Shown here: in pieces, positions 12,561 to 51,395 of the stretch
Numbering within the stretch: position 1 is the first letter of the stretch
Layout: every line of letters starts with the position of its first letter
NCBI GenBank assembly: GCA_038501195.1
Contig: JBBPUQ010000001.1
Location: forward strand, 1,178,001 to 1,242,000
Length of the DNA stretch: 64,000 bases
Source: Nemania diffusa
Lineage: Eukaryota; Ascomycota; Sordariomycetes; Xylariales; Xylariaceae
Reading direction: 5' to 3'
The notes under the pieces: model-generated
Databases searched by the model: none
What the model was told of the DNA's origin: nothing
Seen by the model: only the letters and a program-made list of their open reading frames with translations
Program-made: the position numbers and the translations under genes

Positions 12561-14300
12561 TACACGTGTACAGTTGCCCACAGGGCTTACTGTTTTATAA
12601 TTCAATTTAAGTAACTATGCTGATACTACTAGGGCCCACTTTTTTTTTCTACTTTTTTTTTTAAATCAAACTTGCAACTTAACTTTTTACAATTATTTTT
12701 TTAATTTAGTAATAATTTATTTAAATTTTTATATAAATTAATATATATATAATTAATTTAATTATATTTTAAAATAGTTATATAAATTAAACGCAGTTTT
12801 TTTAAATTAAATTTGTTATATATAATTTATAAATATATTAGTTTTATATAGTTTATATATTTTATTTTTTTATTAATTTTATTTTATTTGTTACAATTGC
12901 TATAGTTGCTATGTAATTTTATATAAATAAATTTTATTTTTATATTTTTAATAATATTAAAAATAATTGCAAATGTTTTTAAATATTTTAGTTCGTTTTA
13001 AATTATATAAATAGTTTTTAATTTGTTAATAAATATATTTACTAGTTATAACTATATTTTATATTAATAAATATTATTTTTATATTTTTAGCAGTATTAA
13101 TTTTAACTATAAATATTTTTAACTACTTTAGTTAACTTTATACTATATAAATATATTTTAATTTATTAGTAAATATATTAAATAGTAATAACAATATTTT
13201 ATATTAATAAATATTGTTTTTATATTTTTAGTAGTATTAACTTTAATAACTAATTTTTTAAAAAACTTAAAGCTTTTTTATATTATATAAGTTTATTTTA
13301 ATTTATTAATAAATATATTTTATAATAGTTATAATATATTATATTAATAAATATTATTTTAATATTTTTAAAAATATTACTTTTAATTATTAACAGTTTT
13401 AAAAACTTAAAAATGTTTTAAATAATATAAATATAATTTAATTAAATAGTATATATATTTTTATTAAAACTAAAAAATCTAGTTAGTATATTTTTTAATT
13501 AAAACTTTTAAAAATAAATCTATATTATTAACAAAAATATAAATTTATATAAATATATTATTTATATTATAACTATAGCAGTATTATTATATAATATTTT
13601 GATTGTTTTACTAATATATTATATAACAAAACATTTAAAAAATTAAAACATAATTAATTAAAATAAAAACAATACTATTAAGCAATATATTTTATTTTTT
13701 AATTTTTAATATATTGTTTTTTTTTTATTATATAAAATTGCAGTAATTTTAATTATATTGTATAAAATATATAAACAGTTTATTAAAATCAAACTTAATT
13801 AAATATATAGTTAATAATATAATATTATTAAAGCTTATAAAAATACAAAAATATATAAAATAATATTAAAATATATAATTAATTTAAATATTAGTTAATT
13901 AATATAGCTTTTTGTTTATTAATTTGTTAATATTTAAGCTATTTATTTCTGCTTTTTATATTTTTCGACTTTTTTATATTTTATAAAAATTTCTTTTTAT
14001 ATGCTTTTGTTACATTTTGTTTTGTTTATTTTTTTTTTATTATTTATATATTGTTAATTTTTTGCTTTAATTATTATTATGCTTTTTTTTTTAATTAATA
14101 TTATTTAATATAATTAATAATATTTACTAGTTGTTTTTAACTACTTTAAAAACTGCAATATTTTTATAATTAAAACTATTTAAATTATTAAAGCGCTTTT
14201 TTAGTTTTTTTACAACAAAGTTTACTGCATTTTAAATAAATTTAAAATATAATTTTTTAATATATATTATATTATATTAAACTAATATAATTTGTTATAA
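12561..14300 (+). repeat. Left arm of the long terminal inverted repeat
   Basis: Starts at TACACGTGTACAGTTGCCCA and aligns without obvious large gaps to the reverse complement of 49,659-51,395 for about 1.74 kb. The outermost bases read ACAGTTGCCCACAGGGCTTA here and ACGGTTGCCCATAGAGCTTA in the other arm, so they differ only by transitions. Later landmarks also pair, such as the TGCTATAGTTGCTAT stretch near 12,900 and ATAATTTGTTATAA near 14,290. Patchy collinear similarity continues to about 14,850. Confidence 0.9.
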
Positions 14301-15469
14301 GTTATTTAATATTTAATTAATTTTGTTATAATTTATAAAAACAAAAAACTAAAAAATATAAAATAAAAAATCAATTAAGTTAAATATATAACTGCTATTA
14401 TATTATATATATTTAATAAAACTAAAACAAAAATAATATATTATATATATTAATAAAAAAATTATAATAGTTTAATAAAACAGTATATTATTATAAATAA
14501 TATAAATTTTAAAAATATTTATATAAACTGCTATTATTTTAAATAAAGTAAAAAATATTTGCTTTATATTAATAAGTTTTAATTTTAATAAACTAAATAT
14601 AAATAAATATTTATTAATTAATATAAAACTAAAAAATATAAAAAAAAAAAAAAAGTTAAAATTTTTAAAAATTTTTGCTAAGTTTATAGCAAAAATAGCA
14701 AAAATAGCAAATTTGTAAAAATTAAAAGTTTAGTTTAATTAAATTAAAAAAAAAATCGAAATATAAACTAAAGCTATATATATTATAAAAAAACAATATA
14801 AATATATTAATAATAAAAAAAAAAATAAATAAGCAATAAAAAAATAAATAATATATTAAAACTTTAAACTGTTTATAGTTAAATTATTATATTTAATAAC
14901 TAAAAAATTTAATAATATAAAATTAAATAAACTAAAAAAATATAAAGCTTTATATATATAAATATTATAAAATATACTCAATTTTTTATACAATTAAACT
15001 TAAACTATAAAATATAGCATTGTTTTAATTTAATCAAGCTTGTTTTAGTTATATTGTTTTTACGCTTTTTTAACTATTATATTTTATATTTATTTGCTAC
15101 TATTATTTATTGTTTTTTTTTGTTTATTATTTATATTTGTTATTTTATACAATATATAATAAATGTTGCTTTATAATAAACTGTTTATATTTAACAATAT
15201 ATAAACAAAATCTATGCTAAAAAGTTTATATATATAATTAATATTTATTTTTAATAAAAGTTATTATATTTTTATTTTTTTTATTGCAACAACTTCAGTA
15301 AGCTTTATTGTTTATTGTTATATTTTTAATTTAACTTTTATTTGCTTTGTTTTTATTAATTAATTTTTTATTATTATTTAATATATTGTTATTTATTTTT
15401 TTTTCTGTTTTATTTATACTATTTTAATACTTTAGTTTATTATTGTTTTTTTTGTTAGTTTTACAAAAT

Positions 15470-16500
15470 ATACAGATTGCAAAAAATCAAAGTATATATA
15501 AAACTATTTTAAATCGAAATTTTACAATTAAAAAAGTTTTATTTATATTTTAGTTAATTATAGCAGCGTATATTTGCAGTAGTGTTAGCTATATCAATTA
15601 TATTAATAAAATCGAACATATTTGTAGTTTCGATTTAATTAATATATATATATATAATTTATATAATAATTATGCAAACTTTATTAATTAAGTTTTTGCT
15701 TTTTTTATTATTATAAACTAAATATATAAAAACTATATAAAAACAAGTATAAACTTTTTTAAACAAATTATTTTAAAAAATAATATATTAGCAAATGTTT
15801 TATTTGTTAATATTTATATATTTTTTATTTTAAGCAATATTATTAAATATTATAAAATTAAAACTAATAATAGTTTAACAATTAATATTAATACAACGTT
15901 TTATATTTGTAACAAAAAAAATAAAAATTTAAAAAAAACTTAAAAAACTTAACTAGTTTTAAATGTTTTAAAACTAACTAGTTGTAAGTTAAAAAACAAA
16001 AAAGCAAATACAACAGTTTTAATTATAATTAAAACAATTGCAAATAATAAAACTTAAATTAAATAAAAGTATATAAACAAGCTATAAATTAAAAAAAGTA
16101 TAATTAATTAAACTTATAAATATAAATATAATTACTAACATAAAATTATTATAAAATTAATATATAATTTGTTTTTAATATTAATATTTAAACCGATATA
16201 TAATAAAACAAATATTAGCGAATTTGATTTTATTAAAACTTATATAAGCTATTTTAAAACAGTTATAGCTTTATTTGTTACAAATAATTATAGTAAATTA
16301 AACTTAATTAAATTAAATTATTAAAAAAAAATAATAAATAAAAAAGTTTATAGTTTATTTAATTAAAAATTTAATAGTTTAAATAAACTGCTGCTACTGC
16401 AAAAAGTTTTAAATATACTAGATATATTTGCAACTAATATATATAACTTTAATTGTAAATGTTTCAATAATACTTCAAACAAAAAACAAATAGCAAAAAA
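15470..16500 (+). pseudogene. Degraded reading frame in the left arm (RIP ghost gene)
   Basis: Reading frame 2 from about 15,470 to 16,322 (about 280 codons) contains only about ten stops, all TAA or TAG. That is several-fold fewer than expected for DNA of this composition. One stretch at 15,560-15,690 has over 40 codons with none and reads like a protein (AAYICSSVSYINYINKIEH). From about 16,385 a different frame runs about 40 codons without a stop (NKLLLLQKVLNILDIFATN). TAA/TAG are the expected RIP products of CAA, CAG and TGG. I cannot name the protein; a transposase is the obvious guess given the flanking inverted repeat. Confidence 0.45.
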
Positions 16501-16799
16501 AACTACAAAATAAATAAATGTTTTATTAATAAAAACAAAAGTTAAAATATAAAGTTTATAGCAATATATTTGTTTAATAATTAAAACTTTTTAATATAAA
16601 GTTTTAAAATTATAATATATTTTTTTATTTTTAAATTATTTTAACTATATTTTATATTTAATTTATAAATTTTATAAAATTAAACTTGTAAATATTAAAT
16701 ATATATTATTATATATTAATTATTTTAGTAATAATTTTAATAAAACATTTTTATTGTTTTTTTAAAAATAAATTTACTAAAATTTTATTAAAAAATTTT

Positions 16800-17237
16800 A
16801 AAATAATATTAAATATTAATAAATAATAAATAAATATAATAAATAAATAATAATAAATATAATAATAATAAATAAATAATAATAATTAATAAATAATAAT
16901 AAATATAATAATAATAAATATAATAATAATAATTAATAAATAATAATAAATATAATAATAATAAATAAATATAATAAATAAATAATAATAAATAATAAAA
17001 AATAATAAAAAATAAAATAAATAATAATAATAAATAAATATAATAAATAAATAATAATAAATAATAAATAATAATAAATAAATAATAATAAATAATAAAT
17101 AATAATAAATATAATAATAATAAAAATAATAATAATAAATAAATAATAATAAATAATAAATAATAATAAATATAATAATAATAAAAATAATAATAATAAA
17201 TAAATAATAATAAATAAATATAATAAATAAATAATAA
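16800..17237. repeat. Irregular AAT/AAAT microsatellite
   Basis: A-rich array of TAA and TAAA units in changing order, leading into the pure 7-base array. No G or C is present over several hundred bases. It marks the inner end of the left arm. Confidence 0.8.
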
Positions 17238-17724
17238 TAATAATAAATAATAAATAATAAATAATAAATAATAAATAATAAATAATAAATAATAAATAAT
17301 AAATAATAAATAATAAATAATAAATAATAAATAATAAATAATAAATAATAAATAATAAATAATAAATAATAAATAATAAATAATAAATAATAAATAATAA
17401 ATAATAAATAATAAATAATAAATAATAAATAATAAATAATAAATAATAAATAATAAATAATAAATAATAAATAATAAATAATAAATAATAAATAATAAAT
17501 AATAAATAATAAATAATAAATAATAAATAATAAATAATAAATAATAAATAATAAATAATAAATAATAAATAATAAATAATAAATAATAAATAATAAATAA
17601 TAAATAATAAATAATAAATAATAAATAATAAATAATAAATAATAAATAATAAATAATAAATAATAAATAATAAATAATAAATAATAAATAATAAATAATA
17701 AATAATAAATAATAAATAATAAAT
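17238..17724. repeat. Pure 7-base minisatellite (AATAATA)n, about 69 copies
   Basis: Near-perfect tandem array of AATAATA (equivalent to TAAATAA), period 7, over about 487 bases. The lack of variants contrasts with the irregular array before it and suggests recent expansion or homogenisation. The unit is 7 bases like some telomere repeats, but it has no G run. Confidence 0.9.
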
Positions 17725-20214
17725 ATATTTAATATTAATAAGTTTTTTTATAAATTTTGTTATATATAATAAATTTTATAAAAATAAATTAATAATATTT
17801 AAATTTAAAAAAATTTAAATAATTTTAATTAAAAATTAAATATAACAAATATATTATTATAATTATTATAAAAATATAATAGTTTTAAAATATTTTTAAT
17901 ATAAATTAATAATATATATAAATATAAATAATTAATTAAAATTTTAAATATATATTATTTATTTAATATTATAATTATAAATATATAAATATTAATTAAT
18001 AAATTTAAAAAATAAATATAAATTAATAAAATTATTAAATTATATTTATTTAAAATAAAAATATTATAAATATATTTTTAAAAAAAACTAATTTTAAAAA
18101 TATTATAAAATATAATAAATAATTTTTATTTTTAATAATATATTTTAAAAGTAATTATTTATTAAAAAATATTATTTTATATAAACATTATATAAATATA
18201 TTTTAATATATTTATATTTTAATGTTTTATATTATAAATAAATAATTATTATAAATTAATATTTAGTTTATTATTAAATAAATATAAATTTTTTTAAAAA
18301 AAAGCTTTTATTTAAAACTATATTAATTATTTAAAAAAAATAAACAAATATTTATATAAAAAACAAAATATAAATATAAAATTAATATTTAATTATATAT
18401 TATAAAATAAATAAATATATTTTATAAAAAATATAATATATTTATTTTAAATTAAAAAAATAATTAAAAGTTTTAATATAATAATAATATTTATAAAATA
18501 TTAATTTTATAATTAAAATAATTTATATTATAATTAAATTAATTAAAATTTATATATTAAATATATTTATTTTATTTTTAATATTATAATAAAATATAAT
18601 TATATATTATAAAAAAAGTTTAAAAATTTTAATTATTAATTTAATTATTTAAATGTTTTAAATTTAATATAAAAATTAAATATAATTTAATTTATAAATT
18701 ATAATTAATAATAAATAAATTATTAAATAATTATTTTTATATATAAATATTTTATTTTAAATTATTTAATTTTTAAAGTTTAATTTAATTTAATTTTAAT
18801 AAATATAATTTAATAAATAATTATAAATATTTTAAATTAAATAATTAAATTTTATAATTTATTATTTATAATATTAAAGTTTAAATTATATTTTATATTA
18901 AATATTATAAAAAATTATAATTAATATAATATATTAATTTAATTATATTATTATTATAAAGTTATAATAACTTTATAATATAAAAAAATAATAATTTAAT
19001 TTATATTTTAAATTATATATTAATATAAAAAATTAAATTATTAAATTTTTAATTTTTTAAATAAAATATATTAATAATTATAAATATTAATATTTATAAA
19101 AATAAAATAAAATAAAAATTAATTATAAAATATAATTAATATAATATTATAAAAAATTTATATAATAAAAATTAAAAATATTAAAATATAATATAAATAA
19201 ATTAATTAATAAATTATAATTAATATAATAATATTATAATATATATTTATATTTAATATAAATAAAAATATAATTATTATTTTAATAATATTTTAAATAA
19301 TATATATATAAATAAATAATTTTAAATATAATAAATATATTAATTTTATTATATAAAAATTAAATTATATTATTAATATTTTCTTTTTATAATATTTTAA
19401 ATTTAAATAAAGTTTTATTATTATAATATTATTATTTATTAATAATAAATAAATTTAAAATATTTATTTTAAATTTTTAATTTATTAATATTTTATAATA
19501 TTGTTATTATTTTATATATATTAATTAATTTATAAATAAAATATTATTAATTTTAAAAAATATATAAAATTATTTAATATAATAAATTAATTAATTTATT
19601 TTTATAATTAATTTTTTTTAATATAAAATATAAATTTAAAATTAAATTTGATTTTAAGTTTTATATATTAATAAAATATTTATATTAATTTTATAATTAA
19701 TATTAATAATAAAACAATTTAATTTTTTAAAATATTAAAATATTTATATTTTTTTATATTGTTTTTATAATAATTTTATAAATTTATTTATAATTTTTTA
19801 TTAATTAATAAATATTTTTATATTATTTAATTATATAATATTATTATTAAGTTTATATTTTAAAGTTTTTAATATATATAATTATTATTAAAATTATATA
19901 TATAAATAATTAAAATAATTTATAAAATTTAAATATATATTTAATTTTTTATTTTTTATATTAATATATAAATATATAAATTTTATTTATATATATTAAT
20001 AAAACTTTAATTATATATATTTAAATATATTTATATAAATTAAATTAAAAAATAATAATATAATAATATTAATTTAATTATTTATTAATTTTAATTATTT
20101 TATAATATTTATATTTTTTAAAAATAATATTATAATAATTATTAATTATATAATTTTTGAATTTTTTAAAATATATATAATATATAATATATAAAATATA
20201 ATAATTTTAATAAA

Positions 20215-20400
20215 AAAAATATAATATAATTTATTAATATTTATAAAATTTATAAATTATATATATATATATATATAATATTTTATTAATATTAATTAAT
20301 AATTATAAAATATAAATATAAATTAATAATTATATTTATATTAAAAATTAATTATAATTAAAAATAATTTTTATAATATATTATTAAGTTATTATTTTAA
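20215..20400 (+). repeat. Relict LTR-like copy, 3' end plus start of interior
   Basis: Matches the end of the 24,676 copy and the sequence after it: a (TA)n run, then ATTTTATTAATATTAATTAA, then AATTATAAAATATA. The upstream part of the roughly 300-base unit is not clear. This suggests that a related element starts here and runs right. Confidence 0.55.
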
Positions 20401-23400
20401 TTATTTTAATTATTATTTTTATGTTTATTATTATTTATATTTAAAATAATAATAATAAATATAAATTAATAAATTAATAACTTTATATAATAAAAATAAA
20501 TTTAATTATAAAAATATAATTAAATTAATTTAAAATATTATTATTAATATTATTAATATATTAAAAATATTATAAAATTAAATATTAAAAATAAATAATT
20601 TATAAATATATTTAAAATTAAATAATTAAAAACAAATTTATATATATTATTAAATAATATATATATAAAAATAAATAATTATATATAAAAAAATAATAAT
20701 ATTATAATTAATAATATTTAAATATTTAAATATATTAAATTTATAAAAATATATTATATTAATAAAAATTATAAACTTTTATTTTAATATATTATTAATT
20801 AAAAAATATTAAAAATATTATAATATAATATTTTTTTAAATTATAAATTAAATAAAATAAAGTTTATATAATATTTAATAAATATTTAATTTAAATAATT
20901 AATTATAATTAATATTATATAAAGTAAATTATTTTTATATTTATTTAAATAAAAAAACAATTTAATAAAAATAATATTTAAAATTTTTAAATTTTTAATT
21001 AATAAATTATAATTTATATAATATATATTAAATAATTTAATTATTATATAATTTTATTTTAATATATTTTAATTTAAAATTTTTTTAATTAATTAAAAAT
21101 TTATAATTAATATATTATTTTTTAATTTATAAATTATAGTATAAATATTTAATAAAAAATTTTTTAAAATTAAAAATAAAATAAATTTATTATAAAATAA
21201 TAAATTAAATAATAAAATAAAAAATAAAAAAAAATAATATTTTAATATATTAATTATATTTTTATTATAAATAATATATATATATATAAAATTAAATATT
21301 AATATTTTATAATATTTTTAAAAAATAATTAATATATTATAACATATAATTAAAATTAAAATTTTATATATATTTATTTTAATATAAATAAAATATATTT
21401 AAATAATAATTATTTTAATTATAATTAAATTAATTAAATTTTATTTAAATAATTATTATAAAATATAAATTTATTATTTAATTATTTTAATATTAATTAA
21501 TTAAAAATTAAAAGTTATTTTATAAAATAAAAAATTATAAAATTATTATAAATAATTAAATATTTAAAATTAATATTTTATATTTAATAATTAATTTTAT
21601 AAAGTTTTTTTTTATAAATATTATTTAAAATATATTATATTATTATTAAAATTTAATATTTTAAAAACTATTTAATTATATTATATATAACTTTAATATA
21701 AATTTTATAATAATATATTATTATATATAAAAAAAATAATATAAACATTTATAAAATTTTTAAATAATAATATTAAATTAAATAATATTATATTTAATTT
21801 ATTAATTTTTAAAATAATTTTTATAATTAATTATAATAAATTTTTTTATTTAAAAATATTTAATAATATTTATATAAAAATTAATATTAATTAAATTAAA
21901 TAAATTTAAAATAAATAAAGTTTTTATAATTAAAAAATATAATATTATAATTAATTTATTATATAAAAAAATAAATTTATATAAAAAAGTTTAAAATATT
22001 AAATAATTAAAACTTTAATATAAAACTAAATTAAAAAAAACTATTTATATTTATTAAAAAGTAATAATTGAATTTTAATTATATAAAATTATAAAAATAA
22101 TAATAAAATTTTAAATTTAATATAAATATTAATAATTTAATTTAATATTACTATTATTATTATATTAAATTTTAATATTAAATAAATAATTTATTTAAAA
22201 TAATATAATTATTATATATATTAATAAAATTAAAAATATATTAATTTAATATATATTATAAATATTATTATAATAAATTAAAATATAAAAATATTTATAT
22301 ATATTTAATATTTAATATATATTAAAAATAATTTTAATAAATTTATAATTATAAAATTATAAATTAATAATAATTTAATTTTTATTTTTAAATATATTAA
22401 ATAATATTAATATTTAAATATTTTAATAAATAAATAAAAGTTTTTTTTTTTTATAAAAAATTAATTATTATATAAAACTTTTTTCTTTATAACATATTAT
22501 TTTTAAATTATAATTAAAAATACTATATAATTTAATAATTATTATTAATATTTAATAAATTTTAAATAAAATATTAAAATATTAAAATATTAAATATATA
22601 AATATATTAATAAATTAATAATATAATTTTATAAAAAACTATTTATATATTTAAACTATTAATTATATTATTAATAATATATTTAAAATTTTAATTTATA
22701 TATAAATATTAAATTAAATTAAAAACAATATTAAAAAAATTATTTAAAATTAATATTATATTATTTTAAAAAATATAAAATTATAAAATATTAACAATAA
22801 AAATAAATTTATATTAAATATTTAAAAAATTAATTATAATATAAATATTAATTATATAATAATTTATATAATATTATTAATATATATAAATTTATAAAAT
22901 ATTATTTTATATTATAATTTAAATAATTATATTAAAAAATTTTAATATTAAATTAATAATTTATTTTATTTTATAAATATATATTTTAATAATTATATAT
23001 AAAAATTATAAAAAATAAATAAATTTAATAAAATTTATTAATATTATTAATTTTATTTATAATTAATAATATATTATTTATATAGTTGTTATTAATTAAT
23101 ATAAATATAAATTTAATTTAAATTTTAATATTAATATTATTATTATATATTTAATAAATAAATATAAAAGTTTTTATAATTTTTTATAATTTTTTAATTT
23201 ATATAATAATTAATAAATTATATAATATTTATATTTAATATAATAATATAATATAAATATTTAATTTATTTTTATATAAAATAATAATTTAATTATTATT
23301 AATAAATATTATTTAAATATAATATTTAAAATATTATTATTTTAAAATTTTAATTATAAATTTATTAAAATTTATTATTTAAATAAATAATAAAATTATA

Positions 23401-24675
23401 ACGAAATAATTAAATTTAATTTTAATAGCAAAAAATTAAATAAATAATAAAAAGTTTATTAAAATATTTCTTTAAAAATAATTTATTTATATTATTATAT
23501 ATTTATTTTTTAAAATTAAATAGTTATAATTATATAATTATTTTTATTAATTTATTAATATTTTATTAAAATATAATATTATTATAATTAATTTATTAAT
23601 AATTATATAATAATTAATATTAATTTAATATATAATTTTTTAATAAAATTAATAAATTATAAAAGTATTTTTAAATTTATATAATAAAATATTTATTATT
23701 AACAAAAAAAATTTTTTTTTTATTATATATTAATATAAATAATATAATTTTTTATTTAAAACAGCTAATATAATAAAAAAAATTAAAATATTAAATTTAT
23801 TAAAATTTTATTAAAATGTAATAAATATAAATTATTTTATTTTATTATTATTTTTATAATATTTTATATAATTTAATTAAAAGATTTTATTTTTATAAAT
23901 TTAAAATTTTAAAATTATATTTTATAATTTTAAATAAAGTTATAATTTATAAAAAAAATTCTAAAATAATTATAATAATTTAAATTTTTTAAAAATATAT
24001 AAAAAAAATTAATTTTTAATATTTTAAAATAAATATAATTTTTAATTAAATAAATAACTATTTAATATTTTTATATAAAGTTTTTAATATATAATAAAAT
24101 TATATATAAATTTATATAATTTTATAAATAATATATTATATTTTAATAATTATTTTTAAATATAATATTTTAATTAAATATATATTATAAGAAAAAAAAT
24201 TTAATATTAATATAATATATTTTAAATTTTTTATTATTTAGAATAAAATATTTATATAATTATATAATATATATTTAATTTAAAATATTTAATAAATATA
24301 AAAATAAAAATTTTAAATTATATTAATTTAATTAAAATAATTTTTTTATATTTAAAGTTTTTATATAAAAATTTTAAATTATTATATATATTTAATATAT
24401 AATAATAAATAAATTTTTAATTAAATCAAAATTATAATATTATATAAAAATAAAAATAATAATATTTTATATATAAACTTTTTAAATAATTAAAATAATT
24501 TTAAATTTAAATATATATAAATATATTTATATAATTATTATATTAATTAATTATTATATTTATATTATAATTAATTTAATATTAATTATAATATTTATTT
24601 ATAAATTATTTAATTAATTTATTAATAAAACAAATATTATATAATTATAATTATTAATATAATTTATATTAAACT

Positions 24676-24975
24676 AATAATTTAATAAAACTTATATATA
24701 TATATTAAATATATATAATTAAAACTTAAATTATAATTTTTATTAAATAATTAAATAAATAAAAAATATTAAAATTTATTAAAATTTATAAAATTTATAA
24801 ATTTTATATATATATATATATAAATAATTTATATATAACTTTTTTAATTATATTTTTTTTTATAAAATATATATATAAATTAATATAAAACTTTAAAATT
24901 TAAAAATAAAATTTAAATTTTATAAATTATTTTAAATTTTTTTATATATATATATATATAAAATTTTATTAATAT
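24676..24975 (+). repeat. LTR-like direct repeat, copy 1
   Basis: About 300 bases repeated almost unchanged at 30,243-30,540. Shared landmarks in order: ATATATTAAATATATATAAT, AAATAATTAAATAAATAAAA, TTATAAAATTTATAAATTTT, a (TA)n run, ATATATAACTTTTTTAATTA, and a second (TA)n run near the end. The spacing of about 5.57 kb fits an LTR retrotransposon. Confidence 0.75.
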
Positions 24976-30242: not shown

Positions 30243-30540
30243 AATAATTTAATAAAATTTATATATATATATTAAATATATATAATTAAAATTTAAACTA
30301 ACATTTTTATTAAATAATTAAATAAATAAAAAATATAAAAATTTATTAAAATTTATAAAATTTATAAATTTTATATATATATATATATAAATAATTTATA
30401 TATAACTTTTTTAATTATATTTTTTTTTATAAAATATATATATAAATTAATATAAAACTTTAAAACTTAAAATAAATTTGAAACTTTATAAATTATTTTA
30501 AATCTTTTTATATATATATATATAAAATGTTTTATTAATA
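30243..30540 (+). repeat. LTR-like direct repeat, copy 2
   Basis: Partner of 24,676-24,975, with a few transition-type differences. Directly after it the strand bias flips from A-rich to T-rich, so it marks an insertion boundary. Confidence 0.75.
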
Positions 30541-37129: not shown

Positions 37130-37480
37130 ATTATAAAAAAAATAAAAATTAATTAAATAATTTTATTAATTAAAAGATTTAAAATAAAAAAAAATAAAAA
37201 AAAAGTTTAATTATATATATATATTATATAAAATATATAAATATATAAAACTATAAATAAAGTTATAATTAAAATTATAAAATTTAATTAAAAAATTTTT
37301 AAAATAAATTTTATAAAATAAATTTTTTAAAATAAATTTTTTTAAAAATTATAGTTTTTATATATTAATAAAAATTATAAAGTTATATTATAATAAAATA
37401 TATAAATTTTAATTTATAATTAAAAAACTAAATATAAAAATTAATAGCTTATATAAATTATTATAATAATTATTTTATTT
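37130..37480. repeat. Second family of LTR-like direct repeat, copy 2
   Basis: Partner of 32,405-32,715, slightly longer because a short AAATAAATTTT-type segment is duplicated inside. The enclosed 4.4 kb is T-rich on the + strand, suggesting an element lying on the minus strand. Confidence 0.7.
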
Positions 37481-39079
37481 AATTATATTATATATAAAAT
37501 TTTATATTTTATATAATAAATTAAATATAATTTTTTATTAATTATATAATTTAATTTATAAATAATAAAATTTAATTATTTTATTTATTATATTAATTAT
37601 AATATTATAATTTTATTTTAAAAAAATAAAATAAATATTTTATATAATAATATAAACTTTTTTTTTATTTATATAATTTAATTAATATTAATTTTTATAT
37701 TATTTTATATAATTTTAATTTTTTAATGTTAAAATAAGCTTTAAAAATAAAAAAAATAATTAATTAATTAATTAATTTAGTTATATTTTTTTAAAATCTT
37801 TATAATTATTTATAATAATATTTTTTATTTATAAAATTTTAAATATATAATAAAATAATATATATATTTATTTAATATTAAATATAACTTTTAATTAATT
37901 AATATTAAAAAATAAATATTATTATATTAATTTATTATATAATTATATTTTATAATAATAATATTAATAAAAATATTATATTTAAAATATTAAAGTTAAT
38001 TTATTTATATAAAACTTTTTTTTTAATAAATAATATTTTAATTATATTAATTATTTCAATAAAAATTATTTATTGCTAATATTTAATTTTAAATATATAT
38101 ATATATATATTAATATTTAATAAAAATATATAAAATTTATTAAAAATTAAATTGTTTTATTTTTAATTTTAAAATTTAAATTATTATAAAATATATTATT
38201 ATATAAAAAATTTATATTATTTTTATAATTTAATATAAATTTATTATAATTTTTATATAATAAAGTTTTTTATTTTAAAATATTATATATAATAATTTAT
38301 TTTATATTTATTATTATTTCTTTTATTAATTTTATTATATAATTATTATAATTTTAAAAAAAAAGTTTATTTAAAATTATAATTATATAATTATTTTAAA
38401 TATTTAATATTATATTATTTAATAATAAAATAAATATTTATTATATAATAATAATTTATTTATAAATTAAACAATAAAACTATATATATAAAGTTTTAAT
38501 TAATTAAAACAAATTTAAATTTAAATATATTAAAATATATTAATATAATTATTATATAAAATAATATTATTTATAATAATTAAATTTTAATATATATTAT
38601 ATAAATTATAATTTAATAATTATAATTTTTATTATTTTAAATATTATTTTTTTTTAAATTATTTTGTTTTATTTATAAATGAAAAATTATAATTTAATAA
38701 ATTTAATATTTATTATAATTAATTAATATATAAAAATAATTATAAAAAATTATATAAAATTTATTTTATTTATATATTAAATTAATAAAATTTAAATAAT
38801 ATTGTTTATTTTTTTAAATATTAAAAATATTATATAATATTATTTTTTAATAGTTTTAAATTAATAATAAAATAAAATAAATATTTTAATTTTAATATAT
38901 ATTATATTATATAATTTATTATTATAACTTTTATAAATATAATAAATTAATTTATTTTAATTAAATTATTATAAATTATTTAATATAAATATAATAATAT
39001 AATATTAAATAATTTATTTATATAATTAAAAGTTTTAATATATTTATTAATATTAATATTAAAATTATTTATATAAATA

Positions 39080-39108
<29 letters not shown>
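39080..39108. repeat. (ATT)n microsatellite
   Basis: About ten ATT units in an otherwise irregular A+T sequence. Confidence 0.8.
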
Positions 39109-39111
<3 letters not shown>

Positions 39112-39231
39112 TATATAGCTTTATATATTTTAAATTTTTTATTATTTATAACTATTATATTAAAAATATATTTAAATAAATTATTTATTTTTAACTTTTA
39201 ATTATATATATTTTTTATAATATTATATAAA

Positions 39232-39340
39232 ATATAAAAATATAAAAATATAAAAATATAAAAATATAAAAATATAAAAATATAAAAATATAAAAATATA
39301 AAAATATAAAAATATAAAAATATAAAAATATAAAAATATT
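39232..39340. repeat. 8-base minisatellite (TATAAAAA)n, about 13 copies
   Basis: Perfect tandem repetition of TATAAAAA over about 109 bases. Confidence 0.9.
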
Positions 39341-39479
39341 ATATATAAAAAGTTTTTAATTTAATAAAGATTAAATTTTTTTTATTTAATTAATAATTTT
39401 TATTTTTTTTTAATAACTATAAAATATAATTTATTTTTTATATAAAAAATAAAAAGTTTAATATAAAAGCTATTTTATA

Positions 39480-39700
39480 ATTATATATATATATAAATTT
39501 AAAATAATTTATAAATATATATATTAAAACAAAATTTAATTAAAGAAATTATATATTAATAATTTATATATATATATATAATTTATAAACTTTATAAAAT
39601 TTAATAATTTTTATATTTTTTATTTATTTAATTATTTAATAAAACTTTTATTTATATATATAATTTAATTTTTATTTATTATATTAATTATATTAAATAA
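39480..39700 (-). repeat. Inverted copy of the first LTR-like family
   Basis: The reverse complement shows the same landmark order as 24,676-24,975, including AAATAATTAAATAAATAAAA and the (TA)n runs followed by TTTATAAATTATTTTAAATT. Orientation is opposite to the 24,676 and 30,243 copies, in agreement with the T-rich bias to its left. Confidence 0.6.
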
Positions 39701-40286
39701 AAAATTATATTATTATTTATTATAATATATAATAAAAACTTTTTTATTTTTTTTATTTTTTATTAATAAGTTATTTTATTATATAAATTTAAAAACAATA
39801 TTATAATTTATAAATTTTATTAATAAATAATATATTAAATTAATATTAGCTATTAAATAATTTGAAATAATTTTTTTATAATAATATAACATTTAATAAA
39901 ATATTAATAAATTAATAAAATTAACTATATAGTTAATATTAATTATATAAATATATTTATATATAAGTTTTATTAATTTATATTTTTATTTTTTATATAA
40001 AACTACTTTAATTTAAAATTTATATTATTATATTTTTTATATAAATTAAAATTTTAAATTTAAATAAAATTAATAATAATTTTAATATTATAATAATTTT
40101 ATTATTTTATTAATATTTAATTATTTTATATTAAATTTTTAATTATTAAAATATTAAATAAATATTTTTATAAAACTTTAATTTTTTTAAACTTTTTTTA
40201 AATAAATTTTATTAATAATAAAATAAAATTAAATAATTTTAATATTTTATTTATTAATAAAATTATATATATATAAATTTTTATTA

Positions 40287-40375
40287 AATGTTTTATTTTT
40301 ATATAATAATTTTAATTTTAATATTTATTAAACGTTTTATTTTTATATAATAATTTTAATTTTAATATTTATTAT
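40287..40375. repeat. Tandem duplication, about 44-base unit x2
   Basis: The stretch beginning GTTTTATTTTTATATAATAA occurs twice in direct succession with one C/T difference. This looks like a recent local duplication. Confidence 0.8.
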
Positions 40376-40809
40376 TTTTTTATTATTTTGATATTATTTA
40401 ATTAATTTTTATATATTTTTATTTATATAATTAATTTATTAAATATTTTTATTTTTAATTATATTTTTATATATAAAATTATATTTATTATATAAAGTTT
40501 TTAAATTATTATTTTAAATTTATTTAATTAATATTTTTTTATTATATTTTTAAATTTAATATATAATAATATTTTAAATAATATATTTTAATTATATTAA
40601 AATAAGTTTTATAAAAATATTTTTATATAAAAGCTATTAAAATTAATAAAATATTATTATTTATATATTTTATATATATAATAAAAAATTAACAATAAAC
40701 TATTTTATAATTAAATATAATAATATTTTTAAATTAATAACTATAATAAAATAAATTATTATATAAATATAATATTTAATATAATTTAAAATTATATTAA
40801 TATTAATAA

Positions 40810-43500
40810 TATTAATATATATATATATTTAAATTAAATTTATATATAAATATATAAAGTTATTTTAAAATTAATTAATAATTATAATATATAATTATAA
40901 ATAAATAAATTAAAAAAAAAAATATAAAAAGATTATAATTAAAAATAACTTTTATGTTTTATTTTTTAATTATTTATATAAAAAAAATAATTATTTAAAT
41001 TAATTAATTAATTAAAAATAGTTTAAAATTATTATAATAAATATAAAAATATAAATAAAATAAATTTAAAATTATAAATTTATATATTAAAATATAATTA
41101 AAAATTTAAAATAAAAATAATTAATTTAAAATAATAAAATATTATTATTATTTTTAATATATTTTATATAATATATATAAAATTATATATAAATAAAATT
41201 AAAAATATAATAATTAATAATTTATATAAATATTTATAATAAAATTTAATAATAATTATTATTAATTTTATATTTAAATAAATATAATTATTATTATTAA
41301 ATATTAAAAAATATTTAAAAATAAATTTATAAATTTTATTAAAAAATTAAATAATAATAAATTTATATAAATAATTTTAATATTTATAATAATTAATATA
41401 TTTAAATTTATAATTATATAAATAAAATAATTATTATTATAATTAATTAAATTAAAATTTATAATATTAATAAATATTATTATATTTAAAATATATATAT
41501 AAATAAAATTTTAAAAAAATTTATATATTTAAATTTTTTATAATATTTTTTTAAAATAATTTAAATTATTATATTTATTTAAATATTATAAATTTTTTCA
41601 AATTATAATAATATATTATAAAATTAATATTATATAATATTGTTTTTTTATATTTAAAAATTAAATAATATAATTTTATTTAAATTATATTAATTTAATA
41701 TATATATAAAATAAAGTTTATAAAAAATTTAATAATTATTTTAATATAATAATTAAATATATAATTAAAATTAAAACTTTTAATTTAAATTTAAATATTA
41801 AATAATTTATTTTAATATAATTTAATTTAATTTAATTTAATTTTATATTTTTTAAAAAAAATTATATAATTATTTATTTTTAAAAATTATAATATATAAA
41901 ATAATTTATATTAAAATATTTATTTTTTAATAAAAGTTAATAATATTTAATAAAATTTTTATTTATTAATTTATATATATATAATTTATTTTTTTTAATA
42001 TTAAAAATAATTAATAAATTTTTAATTATTTATTATAATAATATTTTATTTATATTTAAAACTATTTTAAAATATTTTAATTATATAAAATATATTATAT
42101 AATTTAATTATTTTATTAATTAATTTATAATTAATATTTTATTTATTTAAAAAAAAATAATTATATTATATATTTATAATAAAATAATTTATAATAATTG
42201 TTATTATATATAATTAAATATATAAAATAATATTTTTTTTTTATTTTTTTTTTTATATTTTAATTATTTATTTTTTATAACTTTATTTTTTATTATTATA
42301 TTTAAAATATATTATTTTAAATTTTAAATTTTATATATTAAATAAAATTTTATTTTATTTTATATATAAATATATATATATTAAAAAAACTTTTAATTAT
42401 TTTTTATTTAATAGTTTTTTTATTATTTAATTAAAACTAAATATTATAATTTATTAATAATTATATTTTTTTAATAAAATAATAATAAAATAAATATAAT
42501 TATAAATATATAATATTAAATATAAACTTATATTTATTTTAATAATTTATTATTAATATTATATTAAATTAAAAAATAATTATTTAATAATAAAATTAAT
42601 TTAAAAAATTAATTTAATTTTATAATATTATAAACTTTATAAATTTATATATATTTATTAATATAAAAAAATTAAAATTTTATATAATAATAATTAATTA
42701 AATAAAAATTATTAAAATTATTATATTTTATATTATTTTTAATAAATATATTAATATTTTTAATTAAATTTATTATAATAATTTAAAAAATTTAAATAAT
42801 AATATATATTTATATATAAAAATATAATTTAAATTAATTTAATTTTAATTAATAATAGTTAAATTTTATTAATATATTAAATATATTATTTAAATTAATA
42901 TAACTAATAATATAATTTATAATAATTTTTTAAATATTATATTAAATATTATATTAAATTTTTAAATTAATAATTATTTTTTTTATTAATTTAATAAATT
43001 GTTATTAATAAAAATTAATATATTAAAAAATTAAATATAAATTAAAAATATTAATTTTAAATTTTATTAAATATATTTAATATATTTTAATATTAAATTT
43101 ATTATAGTTTTAATTAAAATTTTTTTTAATTATTTTTAAAAAGTTTTAAATTATTAATATATAAATTTTTATTTAATAAATTAATTTTTAATATTAAAAA
43201 AGTTTATAAATATATTAAATAATTTATTAAATATATAATATTAAATTATAATATATAAAATATAGTTTTATTTTTAATTTTTATTTTAAATTAAATTTAA
43301 TTAATTATAAAAGTTATTATTTTATAATATATAAAGTTTTAAAATTAAAACTTTATTATAAAATATATATAATAAAATTATAATAAAATATAAAAATAAT
43401 TTTTTATTTTATATAAATATATTAAATATAAATATATATATTTATTAATAATAAAATTTAAAATAATTATTTATTTTTTTATTTATATTATAATATTAAA
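40810..43500 (+). mobile_element. Third, partial copy of the first element family
   Basis: From about 40,850 the sequence after the LTR-like unit recurs (AATTAATAATTATAATATAT, then ATTAAAAATAACTTTTATG). About 41,620-41,790 matches 26,215-26,350 in the same order. The right end is not clear. A-rich on the + strand like the other forward copies. Confidence 0.45.
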
Positions 43501-44089
43501 GATTTTTTAAAAAATTTAATATAATTTAAATAATAAAATAATATTTTATATAAATAAAAATAAATTTATATAATTTATTAACAAAATTTAAAACTTTAAT
43601 AATAATTAAATTTTATTTATATTTATATTATAAAATATAAATTAATTATATATTTATTTTAATATTATATAAAAAATATTATATTAAAATAAATATAATT
43701 ATATTTAAATATTATATTAAATAATTAAAATTAATTATTATTATTTATTATATTTAAAATATATTAAAATTTATTTATTTATTTTAAATAAAATATTAAT
43801 ATAAATTTTATAATAAATATTTTATATAATAAAATATAATTAATTAAAACATTATAAAAAAATTATAATTTATATAATATTTTAATTAATAATATTTTAT
43901 TATATATATATTAAATTATATTATAAATAAATAATATTATTAATATATTATATAAAAAAACTTTAAATATATTAAAATTTATAATATATATAAATAAATT
44001 AAAATAAATTATAAATTATATTATAAATATAATTATAAATTTTTTAAAAAGTTTAATTTATAAATAAGTTTTTATATTTTAAATTAAAA

Positions 44090-47000
44090 TTATTTTAATT
44101 TAATTTAATTTATTTTAATTTATTTTAATTTATTTTAATTTATTTTAATTTATTTTAATTTATTTTAATTATTATAGTTATTATAATTATTATAATTGTT
44201 TTAATTTATTTTATTTATTTTAATTATTTTAATTTATTTTAATTATTTTAATTTATTTTTATTTATTTTTATTTATTTTTATTTATTTTAATTTATTTTA
44301 TTTTATATATTATAATTATTATAATTAATATAATTATTATATTTATTTTAATTTATTTTAATTTATTTTAATTATTATAGTTATTATAATTATAATAATT
44401 GTTTTAATTTATTTTATTTATTTTAATTATTTTAATTTATTTTAATTATTTTAATTTATTTTTATTTATTTTTATTTATTTTATTTTATTTTATTTTATA
44501 TATTATAATTATAATAATTAATATAATTATTATATTTATTTTAATTAAATTTAATTTATTTTTATTTATTTTTATTTATTTTTATTTATTTTTATTTATT
44601 TTTATTTATTTTTATTTATTTTTATTTATTTTAATTTATTTTATTTTATATATTATAATTATTATAATTAATATAATTATTATATTTATTTTTATTTATT
44701 TTTATTTATTTTAATTTATTTTATTTTATATATTATAATTATAATAATTTATTTAATTAATTTATTTTATTTAAATTAATATAATTATTTTATTTATTTT
44801 TATTTATTTTTATTTATTTTAATTTATTTTATTTTATATATTATAATTATTATAATTTATTTAATTAATTTATTTTATTTTAATTAATATAATTATTATA
44901 TTTATTTTTATTTATTTTAATTTATTTTAATTATTATAATTATTATAATTATTATAATTGTTTTAATTTATTTTATTTATTTTAATTATTTTAATTTATT
45001 TTAATTATTTTAATTTATTTTTATTTATTTTTATTTATTTTAATTTATTTTATTTTATATATTATAATTATTATAATTAATATAATTATTATATTTATTT
45101 TAATTTAATTTAATTTATGTTTATTTATTTTTATTTATTTAAATTTATATTAAATATTTTAATTTTTATATTTATTAAATTTTTATTTATTTTAATATAT
45201 TTTAGTTATTTTAATTTGTTTTATTTATTTTATATATTATAGTTATTATAATTAATATAATTATTTTATTTCATTTTAATTAATATAATTAATATATTTA
45301 TTTTTATTTATTTTAATTTATTTTTATTTATTTTTATTTATTTTAATTTATTTTATTTTATATATTATAATTATTATAATTAATATAATTAATTTATTTT
45401 ATTTTAATTAATATAATTATTATATTTATTTTAATTTATTTTAATTTATTTTAATTTATTTTAATTATTATAGTTATTATAATTATTATAATTGTTTTAA
45501 TTTATTTTTATTTATTTTTATTTATTTTAATTTAATTTATTTTATATATTATAATTATTATAATTAATATAATTAATTTATTTTATTTTAATTAATATAA
45601 TTATTATATTTATTTTAATTTATTTTAATTTTTTTTTATTTATTTTTATTTATTTTATTTTATATATTATAGTTATTATAATTAATATAATTAATTTATT
45701 TTATTTTAATTAATATAATTATTATATTTAGTTTTTTTTATTTTAATTTATTTTATTTTAATTAATATAATTATTATATTTATTTTTATTTATTTTAATT
45801 TATTTTATTTTATTTTATTTTATATATTATAATTATTATAATTTATTTAATTAATTTATTTTATTTTAATTAATATAATTATTATATTTAGTTTTATTTA
45901 TTTTTATTTATTTTAATTTATTTTAATTTATTTTAATTTATTTTAATTATTATAGTTATTATAATTATTATAATTGTTTTAATTTATTTTATTTATTTTA
46001 ATTATTTTAATTTATTTTTATTTATTTTTATTTATTTTATTTTATTTTATTTTATATATTATAATTGTTATAATTAATATAATTAATTTATTTTATTTTA
46101 ATTAATATAATTATTATATTTATTTCAATTTATTTTAATTTATTTTTATTTATTTTAATTTATTTTATTTTATATATTATAGTTATTATAATTTATTTAC
46201 TTAATTTATTTTAATTTATTTTATTTATTTTAATTATTATAATTATAATAATTATTATAATTACTTTAATTTATTTTAATTATTTTAATTTATTTTAATT
46301 TATTTTAATTATTATAGTTTTTATAATTATTATAATTATTTTTATTTAGTTTATTTTTATATTTATTATTATTATTTATAATTATTTTAATTTATTTTAA
46401 TTATTATAATTATTATAATTTTTATTATTATTTTAATTTATTTAAATTTATTTTTATTATTTTAATAATTATAATTATTTTTATATATATTGTTTATTAT
46501 ATTTATTTTAATTATTTTAATTATTATTATTATTTTTAATTATTTTATTATATTTTAATTATTTTTTTTTTTTTTTTTTTAATTATTATAATAATTATTA
46601 TTATTTTAGTTTGTTTTATTTATTTTTAATTATTTTAATATATTTTAATTTATTTTAATTATTATTGTTATTATATTTATTATAATTATTTTAATTTATT
46701 TTAATTATTAAATTTATTATAATTATTATTATTATTTTAATTTTTTTTAATTATTATAATTATTATAATTATTTTTATTTATTTTATTTTTTATAGTTAT
46801 TATTTTTATTTTTATTTTATTTTATTTATTTTAAATTATTTTAATTTTTATATTTATTTTAATTATTATAGTTATTATAATTATTATTATTATTATAATT
46901 ATTATAATTATTTTTATTTATTTTATTTTTTATAGTTATTATAATTATTTTTATTTTATTTTATTTATTTTAAATTATTTCAATTTTTATATTTATTTTA

Positions 47001-47205
47001 ATTATTATAGTTATTATAGTTATTATTATTATTTTAATTATTTTAATTATTTTAATTATTTTAATTTATTTTAATTTATTTTAGTTTATTTTAAATATTT
47101 TAATTATTATAGTTATTATAGTTATTATTATTATTTTAATAATTTTAATTATTTTAATTTATTTTAATTTATTTTAATTTATTTTAGTTATTTATTTATT
47201 ATAAC
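44090..47205. repeat. T-rich minisatellite array with higher-order units
   Basis: About 3.1 kb of TTTTAATTTA and TTTTTATTTA units (period 10), interrupted by recurring blocks such as TATATATTATAATTATTATA and ATTATAATTGTTTTAATTTA. The blocks recur in similar order several times at a few hundred bases each, giving a satellite-like higher-order structure. It forms the inner border of the right arm, at nearly the same distance from the outer end (about 4.2 kb) as the left A-rich array. Confidence 0.85.
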
Positions 47206-49658
47206 TAATAGTATTATAATTTAAATTTATATTTTTAAACAATGTTTTATTTATTATTATTTTGATTTATTTTTTTTAGCTCGTTTTTATATATATTGTT
47301 TTATACTGCTTATTTTTCGAAATATTTAAATCTTTTTTCTAGTTGTAAGTATAAAAACAGCTTTAGTTCTTTATTATTTGTTTTATATTTATATAAACAT
47401 TGTTACAAATAATAATACTTACTTAATAACAGCTTTTTATAATTTAATTAGTTTGTATTAAACTAAAAACATTTAGCTATATACTAGTTGTATATTTATA
47501 ATATATTTGTAAATAAATATTTCTAATATTGTTTTATTGCTATTTAAATAAACTAATATAATATATTTTATTATAATTTGTTATTTTTAATACAGCAGTT
47601 AATTGTTCAAACTAGATCTAGTTAATAATACAACATTTAAAGTTTGCTTATATAAATATATTAACAATTCTTTTGTTTTTAAATAGTATATATATTCTAG
47701 TTATTTTTAAAACTATTTAGTTTATATTAAAACAAAAACATATAAATATATATTAATACGATTTAATTAAATCAGTTAGTTTTATTTTACGATTTTTTAT
47801 TTTTAAGTTTTTAAAAATAGTTTTATGTTTATTTAATTAATTTAAAAATAACTAGTTAAATATATTTTTAAATAATATATTTACTAAAATATTTTATGTT
47901 TTTTATATAGTTAATTTTATTAAAATTTAATTTGTTAATTTTTTGTACTTTTTTTATAAAACTAATAGTTATTAAACTAAAATAGTTGTAACTTAAACAA
48001 AAGTGTTTTATTTTTAGCGTTTTTTTCAAAAATCGATCAAGTTTAATTTAGTTAACTTAAATTATATACTAATTTATTTTATTTGTTTTAATATAACTTT
48101 AATAAATATATATTGCTATTATTTGTTAAAAGCTAATAATATATTATTATAGTTAATACTGTTTTATATTTTTAATTTAAATATATTATTATTAATAAAA
48201 AGTTCATTTGTTAAATATAATATATATATTAAACAAATATTATAATTTTTATTATAACTATTGTTTTAATATAAAACTAAACAATATAATACAAATATAT
48301 ATCGATTATACTATATATTTCAAAACTTCAATGTTATAGTTTGCAATATTTGTTAATATACTATATATAGTTTAAACTTAATGTTATTTAACTAATACAA
48401 TTGCTTTTAATTGTTTATAGTTGCTTTATTAACGCTTAAAAATAATATTTTTTAAATGTTTTAAATATAATATTACAAAAAAAGTTAATTACTGCTATTT
48501 TTTATATATACTAATATAAATTATATTGTAATAAATATAATATTATATAAAAAAATAGCAACTGTTTATTAAAAAACTTATAAAACTATATTTGTAAATA
48601 TATAATTTAATTTAATATTTTCTGTCGATATATTTTTAGCTTATATTAATATTGTTTAAACTTACTTTAATTAATTTAAAAGCATTATTTTTTAAACTTT
48701 TTTAAAATTTTTATATTATTTAATTCAAACTTAAAATAACAGTATTAAATTGTTTTATTAAAGCTTTTAGTTTAAATTATCCGCTTTTGTTTAAATATTA
48801 TACTTTATATTTAAAACTAACGATATAAAGTCATTTGTTTTATATTAATATTATATATTTGCAATAAAAACTAATAAATTTTATATATAAATATACTGTT
48901 ATAATATTATAAAATAATTACATTTTTATAAAAATTAAAGTTTTTTAATACTAGACTTTTTATTTTAAATTAATACAAGTTTAAACTGTTTAAATTTTTT
49001 AGTATATATAAAAAATCGGTTTAATTAATATATTAAACTTTATATATATAATAAAACTTAATGTTTTATTACAATATTATATAATATAACATTATTATAT
49101 AAATATTTCTTATTTTTTATTTGCTTATTTTTTATTTACAATATTATTATTTATATATGTTATTTTTTATAAAATAATTTAGCTAAAATTTTATTATAAA
49201 TAGTTTGTTTAAATATAAATTGCTAATTTTTTAACTTTTTAATAAATGCTTAACTAAAAATTTTTTTTGTAAATTTTTTAAAAAATTTTTAAGCTTTTTT
49301 TATAATTGCTTGCTTTTTTTTTTTTAAGTTAATATAAATTAGCAGTTGTTTTTTTATATTTAATTAACTAAAGTTATAACTTATTAATATAAAACAAATA
49401 GTTATAACTAGTACTTAAATAAAAATAATTAATACAAATGTTACTAAATTTATTACTGCTAAAAATAACACACTTATTATTTAAGCTAAAAGATTTATTA
49501 TATATATATTATATATATGCTTTTTTTACTACATTTTTAATAAACAAATAATATGCAATAATAGTATAATATTTTTAAGTATTTTTTTTATATTCAACTT
49601 TTTAGTATTTTTAGTTCAATATAATAACTTTAAAATTATAATAGCGTACAAATATTTA
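47206..49658. other. Inner part of the right arm, residual G/C, no gene
   Basis: About 2.45 kb with more G and C than the core. No frame on either strand is clearly depleted of stops, so I call no pseudogene. The outer part shows patchy collinear similarity to the left arm in inverted orientation (for example about 49,373-49,400 against about 14,560, and about 49,120 against about 14,830). Confidence 0.5.
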
Positions 49659-51395
49659 TAACAAATTATATTAATTTAATATAATATAAAATATACTAAA
49701 AAATTATATAAAAGTTATATTTAAAAAGCAGTAAACTTAATTATATATATATTAATAAAACTTTTTAACAATAAAAAAAGTTTGTTTTTTAATATTATTA
49801 ATTAATATATATATAATAAACAAAATAAACAAAAATATATTATTAACTTTAAAATTTAAAAGTAATTAAAAAAATATAATAATAATTAAAATAAAAAATT
49901 AACAATATATAAATAATAAAAAAAAAATAAATAAAATAAAATATAACAAAAATATATAAAAAAAAATTTTTACAAAATATAAAAAAGTTAAAAAATATAA
50001 AAAATAAAAACAAATAGTTTAAATATTAACAAGTTAATAAATAAAAAGCTATATTAATTAATTAATATTTAAATTAATTATATATTTTAATATTGCTTTA
50101 TATATTTTTATATTTTTGTAAATTTTAATAATATTATATTATTAATTATATATTTAATTAAGTTTAATTTTAATAAATTATTTATATATTTTATATAATA
50201 TAATTAAAATTATTGCAATTTTATATAACAAAAAAAAAAACAATATATTAAAAATTAAAAAATAAAATATATTATTTAATAATACTGCTTTTATTTTAAT
50301 TAACTATATTTTAATTTTTTAAATGTTTTATTATATAATATATTAATAAAACAATCGAAATATTATATAGTAGTACTACTGCAGTTACAATATAAATAAT
50401 ATATTTATATAAATTTATATTTTTATTAATAATATAGATTTATTTTTAAAAGTTTTAATTAAAAAATATATTAACTAGATTTTTTAGTTTTAATAAAAAT
50501 ATATATACTGTTTAATTAAATTATACTTATATTACTTAAAACATTTTTAAATTTTTAAAACTATTAATAATTAAAAATAATACTTTTAAAAATATTAAAA
50601 CAATATTTATTAATATAATATATTATAGCTATTATAAAATATATTTACTAATAAATTAAAATAAACTTATATAATATAAAAAAGTTTTAAATTTTTTAAA
50701 AAGTTAGTTATTAAAATTAATATTATTAAAAATATAAAAATAATATTTGTTAATATAAAATATTATTATTATTATTTAATATATTTATTAATAAATTAAA
50801 ATATATTTATATAATATAAAGTTAGTTAAAATAACTAAAAATATTTATAGTTAAAATTAATACTACTAAAAATATAAAAATAATATTTGTTAATATAAAA
50901 TATAGTTATAGCTAGCAAATATATTTATTAGCAAATTAAAAACTGCTTATATAGTTTAAAATAAATTGAAATATTTAAAAATATTTATAATTGTTTTTAA
51001 TATTATTAAAAATATAAAAATAAAATTTATTTATATAAAATTATATAGCAACTATAGCAATTATAACAAATAAAATAAAATTAATAAAAAAATAAAATAT
51101 ATAAACTATATAAAACTAATATGTTTATAAATTATATATAACAAATTTAATTTAAAAAAACTACATTTAATTTATATAGCTATTTTAAAATATAATTGAA
51201 TCAACTATATATATATTAATTTATATAAAAGTTTAAATAAATTATTGCTAAATTAAAAAAATAATTGTAAAAAATTAAGTTGTAAATTTAATTTAAAAAA
51301 AAAAGTAAAAAAAAAAAGTAGGCCCTAGTAGTATTAGCGTAATTATTAAATTGAATTATAAAACAGTAAGCTCTATGGGCAACCGTACACGTGTA
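49659..51395 (-). repeat. Right arm of the long terminal inverted repeat
   Basis: Reverse complement of 12,561-14,300, of nearly identical length (about 1,737 against 1,740 bases). It ends outward at TACACGTGTA (51,386-51,395). Differences from the left arm are mainly C/T and G/A, the pattern expected if two once-identical copies were mutated separately by RIP. Confidence 0.9.

Follow-up and report, generated by a model that had tools for sequence, protein, structure and literature searches.

A 38.8-kb block in the Nemania diffusa genome is very probably one copy of an IS3EU-type DNA transposon with a pre-formed A/T-only core

The window analysed here, a stretch of 64,000 nucleotides of Nemania diffusa DNA, has a G+C content of about 45% outside a block in which it drops to 8-13% at 13-17 kb, falls to 0.4-3.6% across 17-47 kb, reaches 7-12% at 47-51 kb and becomes normal again past 51 kb. 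The 38.8-kb block with mirror-image ends described in the original prediction is real: it spans positions 12,569-51,387 (38,819 bp; hereafter copy E1), carries the same 6-bp duplication on both sides (Table 1) and shows a paired structure that was found at 15 places in the genome, which rules out chance. About 180 bp to its left lies a patatin/NPHP3/ankyrin gene split over two open frames (window positions 9965-12385), and about 470 bp to its right a RIO2-like kinase open frame (51856-53196). Neither a tRNA (scan with the bacterial code) nor an Rfam family was detected in the window.

Table 1. Features of transposon copy E1 (positions of the window)
Feature	Position	Strand	Remarks
Left target-site duplication CACGTG	12563..12568	+	Same as right copy
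Left terminal inverted repeat, about 1.57 kb	12569..14139	+	Terminus TACAGTTGCCC; TACGGTCGCCC in copies with less mutation
Left arm, unique part	14140..16750	+	RIP-mutated, perhaps formerly coding; no family match for the same arm of E12 and E15
A/T-only core, 30.4 kb	16751..47150	.	1.7% G+C; 98.9-99.2% identity across five whole copies
Tandem (TAATAAA)n array, core left edge	16817..17725	+	
Degenerate T-rich tandem array, core right edge	44090..47204	+	78% matches
Right arm, unique part, with decayed integrase/transposase gene	47200..49816	-	Gene runs from right end towards core
Place equivalent to the E12 integrase frame (L026:4956-5144; 110-aa paralogue match)	47493..47850	-	Same frame aligned, stops present; placed by calculating the distance to the element end
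Right terminal inverted repeat	49817..51387	-	
Right target-site duplication CACGTG	51388..51393	+	

The ends of E1 are inverted repeats consisting of 1,120 nt that match at 93% and overlap with 450 nt that match at 85%; the inverted arms had been recognized correctly, but their length of 1.74 kb is corrected to about 1.57 kb. Written in purine/pyrimidine letters, an alphabet that is blind to C/T and G/A changes, the left and right ends of E1, E2 and E12 agreed at 100% of positions between 100 bp and 1.5 kb, the sole exception being one step in E1 that resembles a 1-bp indel. Beyond 1.5 kb, end-to-end identity in the same three copies was 66-82% up to about 2.2 kb, in agreement with the fading yet collinear similarity described before. 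The start TACACGTGTA attributed to both ends is present, but most of it is the target duplication and not the element. Likewise, 'A+T-only' is true of the core, which holds 525 G/C in 30,400 bases, and untrue of the arms (about 7-13% G+C).

A search of the genome (55.6 Mb, 16 contigs) with 1.5 kb of the E1 left end, of the kind proposed for the arm, returned, with the query itself counted, 31 ends that score above 1,700 bits. These are made up of 14 complete +/- pairs, one right arm on C6 and two partnerless arms on C8 (C8:283116 and C8:565720). The C6 arm belongs to a pair (E9) whose left arm is interrupted by about 31.7 kb (1,539 and 394 bits), which brings the count to about 15 end pairs genome-wide, three of them on C3 and two apiece on C2, C9 and C10. 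Perfect 6-bp target duplications were present in all 14 pairs with both ends read, each with a different sequence, which bears out the earlier suggestion of a very large terminal-inverted-repeat element; E9, whose right end is unread, stands outside this count as the 15th pair. The complete pairs measure 38.8-39.2 kb (n = 7), 40-41 kb (n = 2) or 44.6-55.2 kb (n = 5). A 4-kb core query also matched inside E8 at 98%, in a search that scored 1 of 1,785 candidates and is uninformative about copy number. A mis-join of two copies is unlikely, since each of the five whole copies, 38.8-39.2 kb long, sits on a different contig and has a target duplication of its own. At two genome loci, exactly 5,000 consecutive positions are N, which resembles masking more than an assembly gap.

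The termini take the form TACGG..CCGTA: all 28 ends begin with TAC, followed by GG in 25 (TACGG) and by AG in three (TACAG). The termini of IS3EU elements are reported to be TA..TA, and their target duplications are usually 6 bp long (PMC10045372); the TET+ IS3EU families of rust fungi have termini TAYGG..CCRTA (PMC12730594). Both IS3EU traits are found here, the 6-bp duplication in 14/14 pairs and the TA..TA termini at 28/28 ends. In E12, the least mutated among the five whole copies, a right-arm frame matched the Pfam family rva_4 ('Integrase core domain') with an E value of 5e-5 and 23.5 bits, under the cut-off of 26. The match was absent in the frames of E1, E2, E6 and E14 (one positive in five copies scanned), and the aligned integrase frame of E1, E2 and E6 resembles that of E12 with more stops. 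Genes with rva_4 matches above the cut-off exist elsewhere in the genome, and we take this family to cover IS3EU transposases. Aligned with the E12 frame over 110 residues, the 333-residue frame of a G+C-normal rva_4 gene showed 28% identity, with an E value of 2e-9 when this one sequence was searched and composition correction was off; the two other frames reached 17 and 22 bits in the same comparison. Membership in IS3EU is well supported by the ends and the target duplication, and moderately so by the protein, which we regard as a putative transposase.

Left-arm family scans of E12 and E15 gave no Pfam match except DUF3716 (E 0.092), and no alpha-kinase, the reported partner gene of TET+ families, was found in these left-arm frames; RIP may mask genes there. 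The only alpha-kinase matches of the genome search were two, at C7:282.5-283.1 kb. No TET/JBP match was obtained in the arm frames scanned, all heavily mutated. The left arm of E1 showed 3-base periodicity in 600-base windows (z 8.0) and in 1500-base windows (z 3.3), and none in one 2400-base window.

Five whole copies out of the 15 (E1, E2, E6, E10 and E12) were aligned, and arms and core turned out to have separate histories. Compared pairwise, the 4-kb arms differed by 107-110 transitions and 0.4-0.6 transversions per kb, against about 5.2 transitions and 4.1-4.3 transversions per kb in the core; indels amounted to 0.13 per kb in the arms and 2.2 in the core (four copies, without E10). Pairwise identity was 98.9-99.2% in the core and 86-91% in the left arms, and arm G+C ranged from 10 to 21%. 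Arm differences are almost all C/T and G/A transitions, the mark of RIP following insertion, and the arm C had changed before all four bases (0.27-0.51), so that the process is RIP-like and not limited to CA. The alignments show arms that were evidently degraded copy by copy, after insertion, by RIP-type C-to-T mutation.

As for the core, 678 of 24,120 columns (2.8%) held G/C in at least one of the five copies; 320 of these were common to all five and 177 occurred in a single copy. Among the arm columns, 23-26% held G/C in any copy, and those common to all five were 37 of 328 in the terminal inverted repeat and 107 of 700 in the left arm. G/C of E12 was kept in other copies at 0.76-0.85 in the core vs 0.40-0.57 in the arms, and G/C of E1 at 0.85-0.89 vs 0.56-0.82. 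The G+C step is found 4.0-4.2 kb inside the element, in all five copies on the left side and in all four having sequence there on the right side. The high identity of the core and its shared residual G/C sites show a 30-kb core that was already A/T-only before the five copies dispersed, so that site-by-site RIP did not make it. The notion of a RIP-saturated tract thus holds for the arms, with damage from after insertion, and fails for the core. Transversions and indels in the core exceed those in the arms, which counts against a single recent burst at one mutation rate; the excess could stem from fast mutation of A/T-only DNA, from older core lineages or from assembly error. Taking everything together, we consider it very probable that the block belongs to a multi-copy family of IS3EU-type DNA transposons, with a putative transposase in its right arm, a confidence that applies to the whole explanation, including arm RIP after insertion and a pre-formed A/T core.

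The order of A and T in the core is near that of random two-letter text, as expected where ordinary DNA lost C and G through transitions. The repeat finder gave hundreds of weak tandem arrays (790 rows in the window, of which 150 were listed), and the strongest arrays noticed were those at the core edges; diverged inverted repeats occur within the core, for example 289 nt at 89%. A one-ended relative at C8:283.1 kb holds the same core in purine/pyrimidine letters, fragmented into inverted pieces, until similarity stops about 34.6 kb into the stretch. Two of five C8 pieces were richer in G+C than their E1 counterparts (5.8 vs 2.5% and 4.6 vs 2.7%) and three were about equal. From the first C8 piece to E1, changes of the C>T or G>A type numbered 250 and those in reverse 70, with transversions at 2.2% vs 0.35-0.49% among the E copies. 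With period-3 repeats masked, 3-base periodicity of the core at two window sizes was z 6.8 and 9.3 in C8, 3.6 and 2.6 in E1, and 2.0 and 2.3 in E12, compared with z 35 in the flanking genes; the weak periodicity within E1's own core counts against a reading as worn coding DNA. No Pfam match was obtained in six frames of the less degraded core (L055). We infer that the core consists of worn cargo genes, RIP-worn rather than born A/T.

A/T-only DNA also adjoins a second family (family B), whose rva_4 gene is a different one and occurs in six near-identical copies (C3:2451500, C5:1107836, C4:2668698, C10:2198792, C10:2383765 and C10:3229513). Over 1,001 bases their identity rounds to 100%, four of the six, query included, being fully identical with the full score, and no RIP damage was seen over 1 kb in the six copies; other copies of the gene were 64-80% identical, part of them partial. 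The frame contains a TAG in 6/6 copies (two TAG in one copy), placed at or between the segments that match rva_4; it may lie inside an intron, and the gene is a candidate transposase. L051, an A/T-only stretch of about 1-5% G+C that was picked before family B was known, has counterparts of 98-100% identity upstream of all six genes, with their far edge 9.85-9.9 kb off. Similar DNA adjoins five older family-B copies as well, and three more L051 matches had no gene match listed nearby (C3:122 kb, C5:833-844 kb). At the one junction read (C3:2,450,900), shortly upstream of the open frame, G+C changes from 0.08 to 0.48 across adjacent 50-base bins, and the gene side has 41.8% G+C over 1.6 kb. Judged by the gene-to-A/T spacing in family B, A/T-only cores seem to travel with young elements, and this genome appears to have two families that contain them. 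Either family B moved too recently for RIP, or RIP is inactive in this strain.

Among the alternatives, the one that survives best is capture, in which RIP-saturated heterochromatin of the host, from a subtelomere or a centromere, was bracketed by two element ends that mobilized it in the manner of a composite transposon. Host A/T-only DNA of equal composition exists, the boundaries are sharp in the E-family cores and at the one family-B junction, and the two families are without a long common core sequence, all of which would suit capture. However, the E1 core had no long sequence in common with any of the four A/T-only stretches compared (L051-L054), with which it shared 40, 30, 55 and 5 24-mers, against 2-21 in controls and 1,935 in the C8 relative. 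The first three values are a small excess over controls, and one of the four stretches, L051, turned out to belong to family B. We consider capture unlikely. At the contig end C2:1-2500 (L053), DNA of 0.4-1.2% G+C follows on telomere repeats (CTAACCC)n, the change taking about 250 bases.

Saturation in place, with ordinary cargo inserted and RIP later driving all cores to one A/T-only end point, has in its favour that full C-to-T/G-to-A conversion is deterministic and would make the cores look alike, that other genomic DNA also reaches 0-9% G+C (L051-L054 minus telomere repeats), and that C-to-T signatures occur in the arms and in the C8 core. Against it, the copies have a larger share of their remaining G/C sites in common in the core than they do in the arms, the arms of the same copies stand at 10-21% G+C with a step at 4.0-4.2 kb, and family-B gene DNA without RIP damage adjoins A/T-only DNA; we regard this explanation as largely refuted and very improbable. 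Even less can be said for a virus-like element of the Polinton/Maverick type. Such elements would share with ours the 6-bp duplication, long inverted ends, an integrase match and large size, but they have AG..CT termini, which the TA..TA termini found here do not match, and they carry genes for a capsid and for a protein-primed polymerase. The arm frames scanned gave no match to a polymerase, an ATPase or a capsid protein, a weak argument given the RIP damage. The centromere offered earlier, or a neocentromere, in either case flanked by inverted outer repeats, has the mirror-image layout and A/T-rich centre in its favour and practically no probability left, a regional centromere (one per chromosome, no target duplication) being ruled out by 15 pairs, several of them on the same contig (three on C3; two each on C2, C9 and C10), and by the 6-bp duplications in 14/14.

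Under the preferred reading of a transposon with a pre-formed core, the core would be older cargo or coding DNA that was RIP-mutated to saturation in the element's ancestors. Repeated rounds of RIP would have worn it down, only those copies with working ends and transposase going on to move, so that selection for movement would have preserved both. With C and G gone almost nothing mutable would be left, and the core would be passed on, changing only through slippage, transversions and rare G/C gains. Copies that are now dead may have been moved by their own transposase before RIP, or by a transposase acting in trans.

According to PMC4858203, the homology search of Neurospora RIP depends on sequence, with GAC triplets especially effective. 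The 30.3-kb E1 core contains no GAC/GTC triplet, vs 699 in 25 kb of flanks; by our calculation a sequence with the G+C content of the core should contain only about two, so that their absence reflects composition. We speculate that an A/T-only core shields against RIP: with hardly any C to deaminate and no GAC triplets it would be nearly invisible to the homology search, and only about 8 kb of the 39-kb element would be able to provoke RIP. That this is an adaptation, in which the end product of RIP was turned into armour against RIP, we hold to be distinctly doubtful. The element also offers a natural test of how RIP recognizes repeats.

RIP-saturated A/T blocks in fungi are usually seen as graveyards, in which whole elements decayed in place. 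In the present case the A/T-only state preceded dispersal, so that A/T-rich blocks can multiply through transposition and base composition is no clock for insertion; DNA that resembles a worn-out product of genome defence was itself mobile. As giant fungal elements carrying cargo, Starships are alike; they have a tyrosine-recombinase captain and are not known to have long inverted ends, and were rejected here by the long inverted ends, the 6-bp duplication and the rva_4 integrase match.

Compared with published systems, our element is like IS3EU (Kojima 2023, PMC10045372; fungal TET+ families PMC12730594) in the usual 6-bp duplication and the TA..TA termini, has a putative transposase that would be of the DDD/E type known from the IS3EU/GingerRoot clade, and is unlike IS3EU in its 39-kb length, inverted ends of about 1.57 kb and 30-kb A/T-only core; its scanned, heavily mutated arm frames gave no match to the alpha-kinase or TET/JBP of the TET+ families (PMC12730594). 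Styx of Zymoseptoria (PMC10853768) has an IS3EU-like transposase and resembles our element in the 6-bp duplications of the examples given and in RIP-like decay, and Styx copies with a broken transposase gene moved; the plotted copies, however, are below 13 kb with four coding sequences, and the excerpted text mentions no A/T-only core. The A/T-rich elements of Aspergillus flavus (PMC9910759) are likewise dispersed A/T-rich blocks, one category of which derives from RIP-mutated transposons, but the threshold there was 70% A/T, whereas here A/T exceeds 98% and this state was reached ahead of dispersal. Among the matches listed (titles and abstract openings), no published transposon with an A/T-only core was found.

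The outer 120-140 bp of the element were much less mutated than the DNA inside them: in the 31 ends read, G+C averages 0.63 at the outside and drops to about 0.08. RIP seems to fade at this edge of homology. On C1, the outer 120 bp of a diverged end (L068) are G+C-normal, whereas its inner part is A/T-only; it was set aside as evidence, since all 31 ends lose G+C over their first 140 bp. A marker, AGGT or GGTA, occurs at about bases 41-44 of the element ends. Relative to the integrase side it is oriented one way in nine of the 13 informative copies (E1, E4, E6, E7 and E10-E14) and reversed in four (E2, E3, E8 and E15), and E5 has AGGT at both ends. This pattern suggests that the two inverted ends have been exchanged by inversion or have converted one another.
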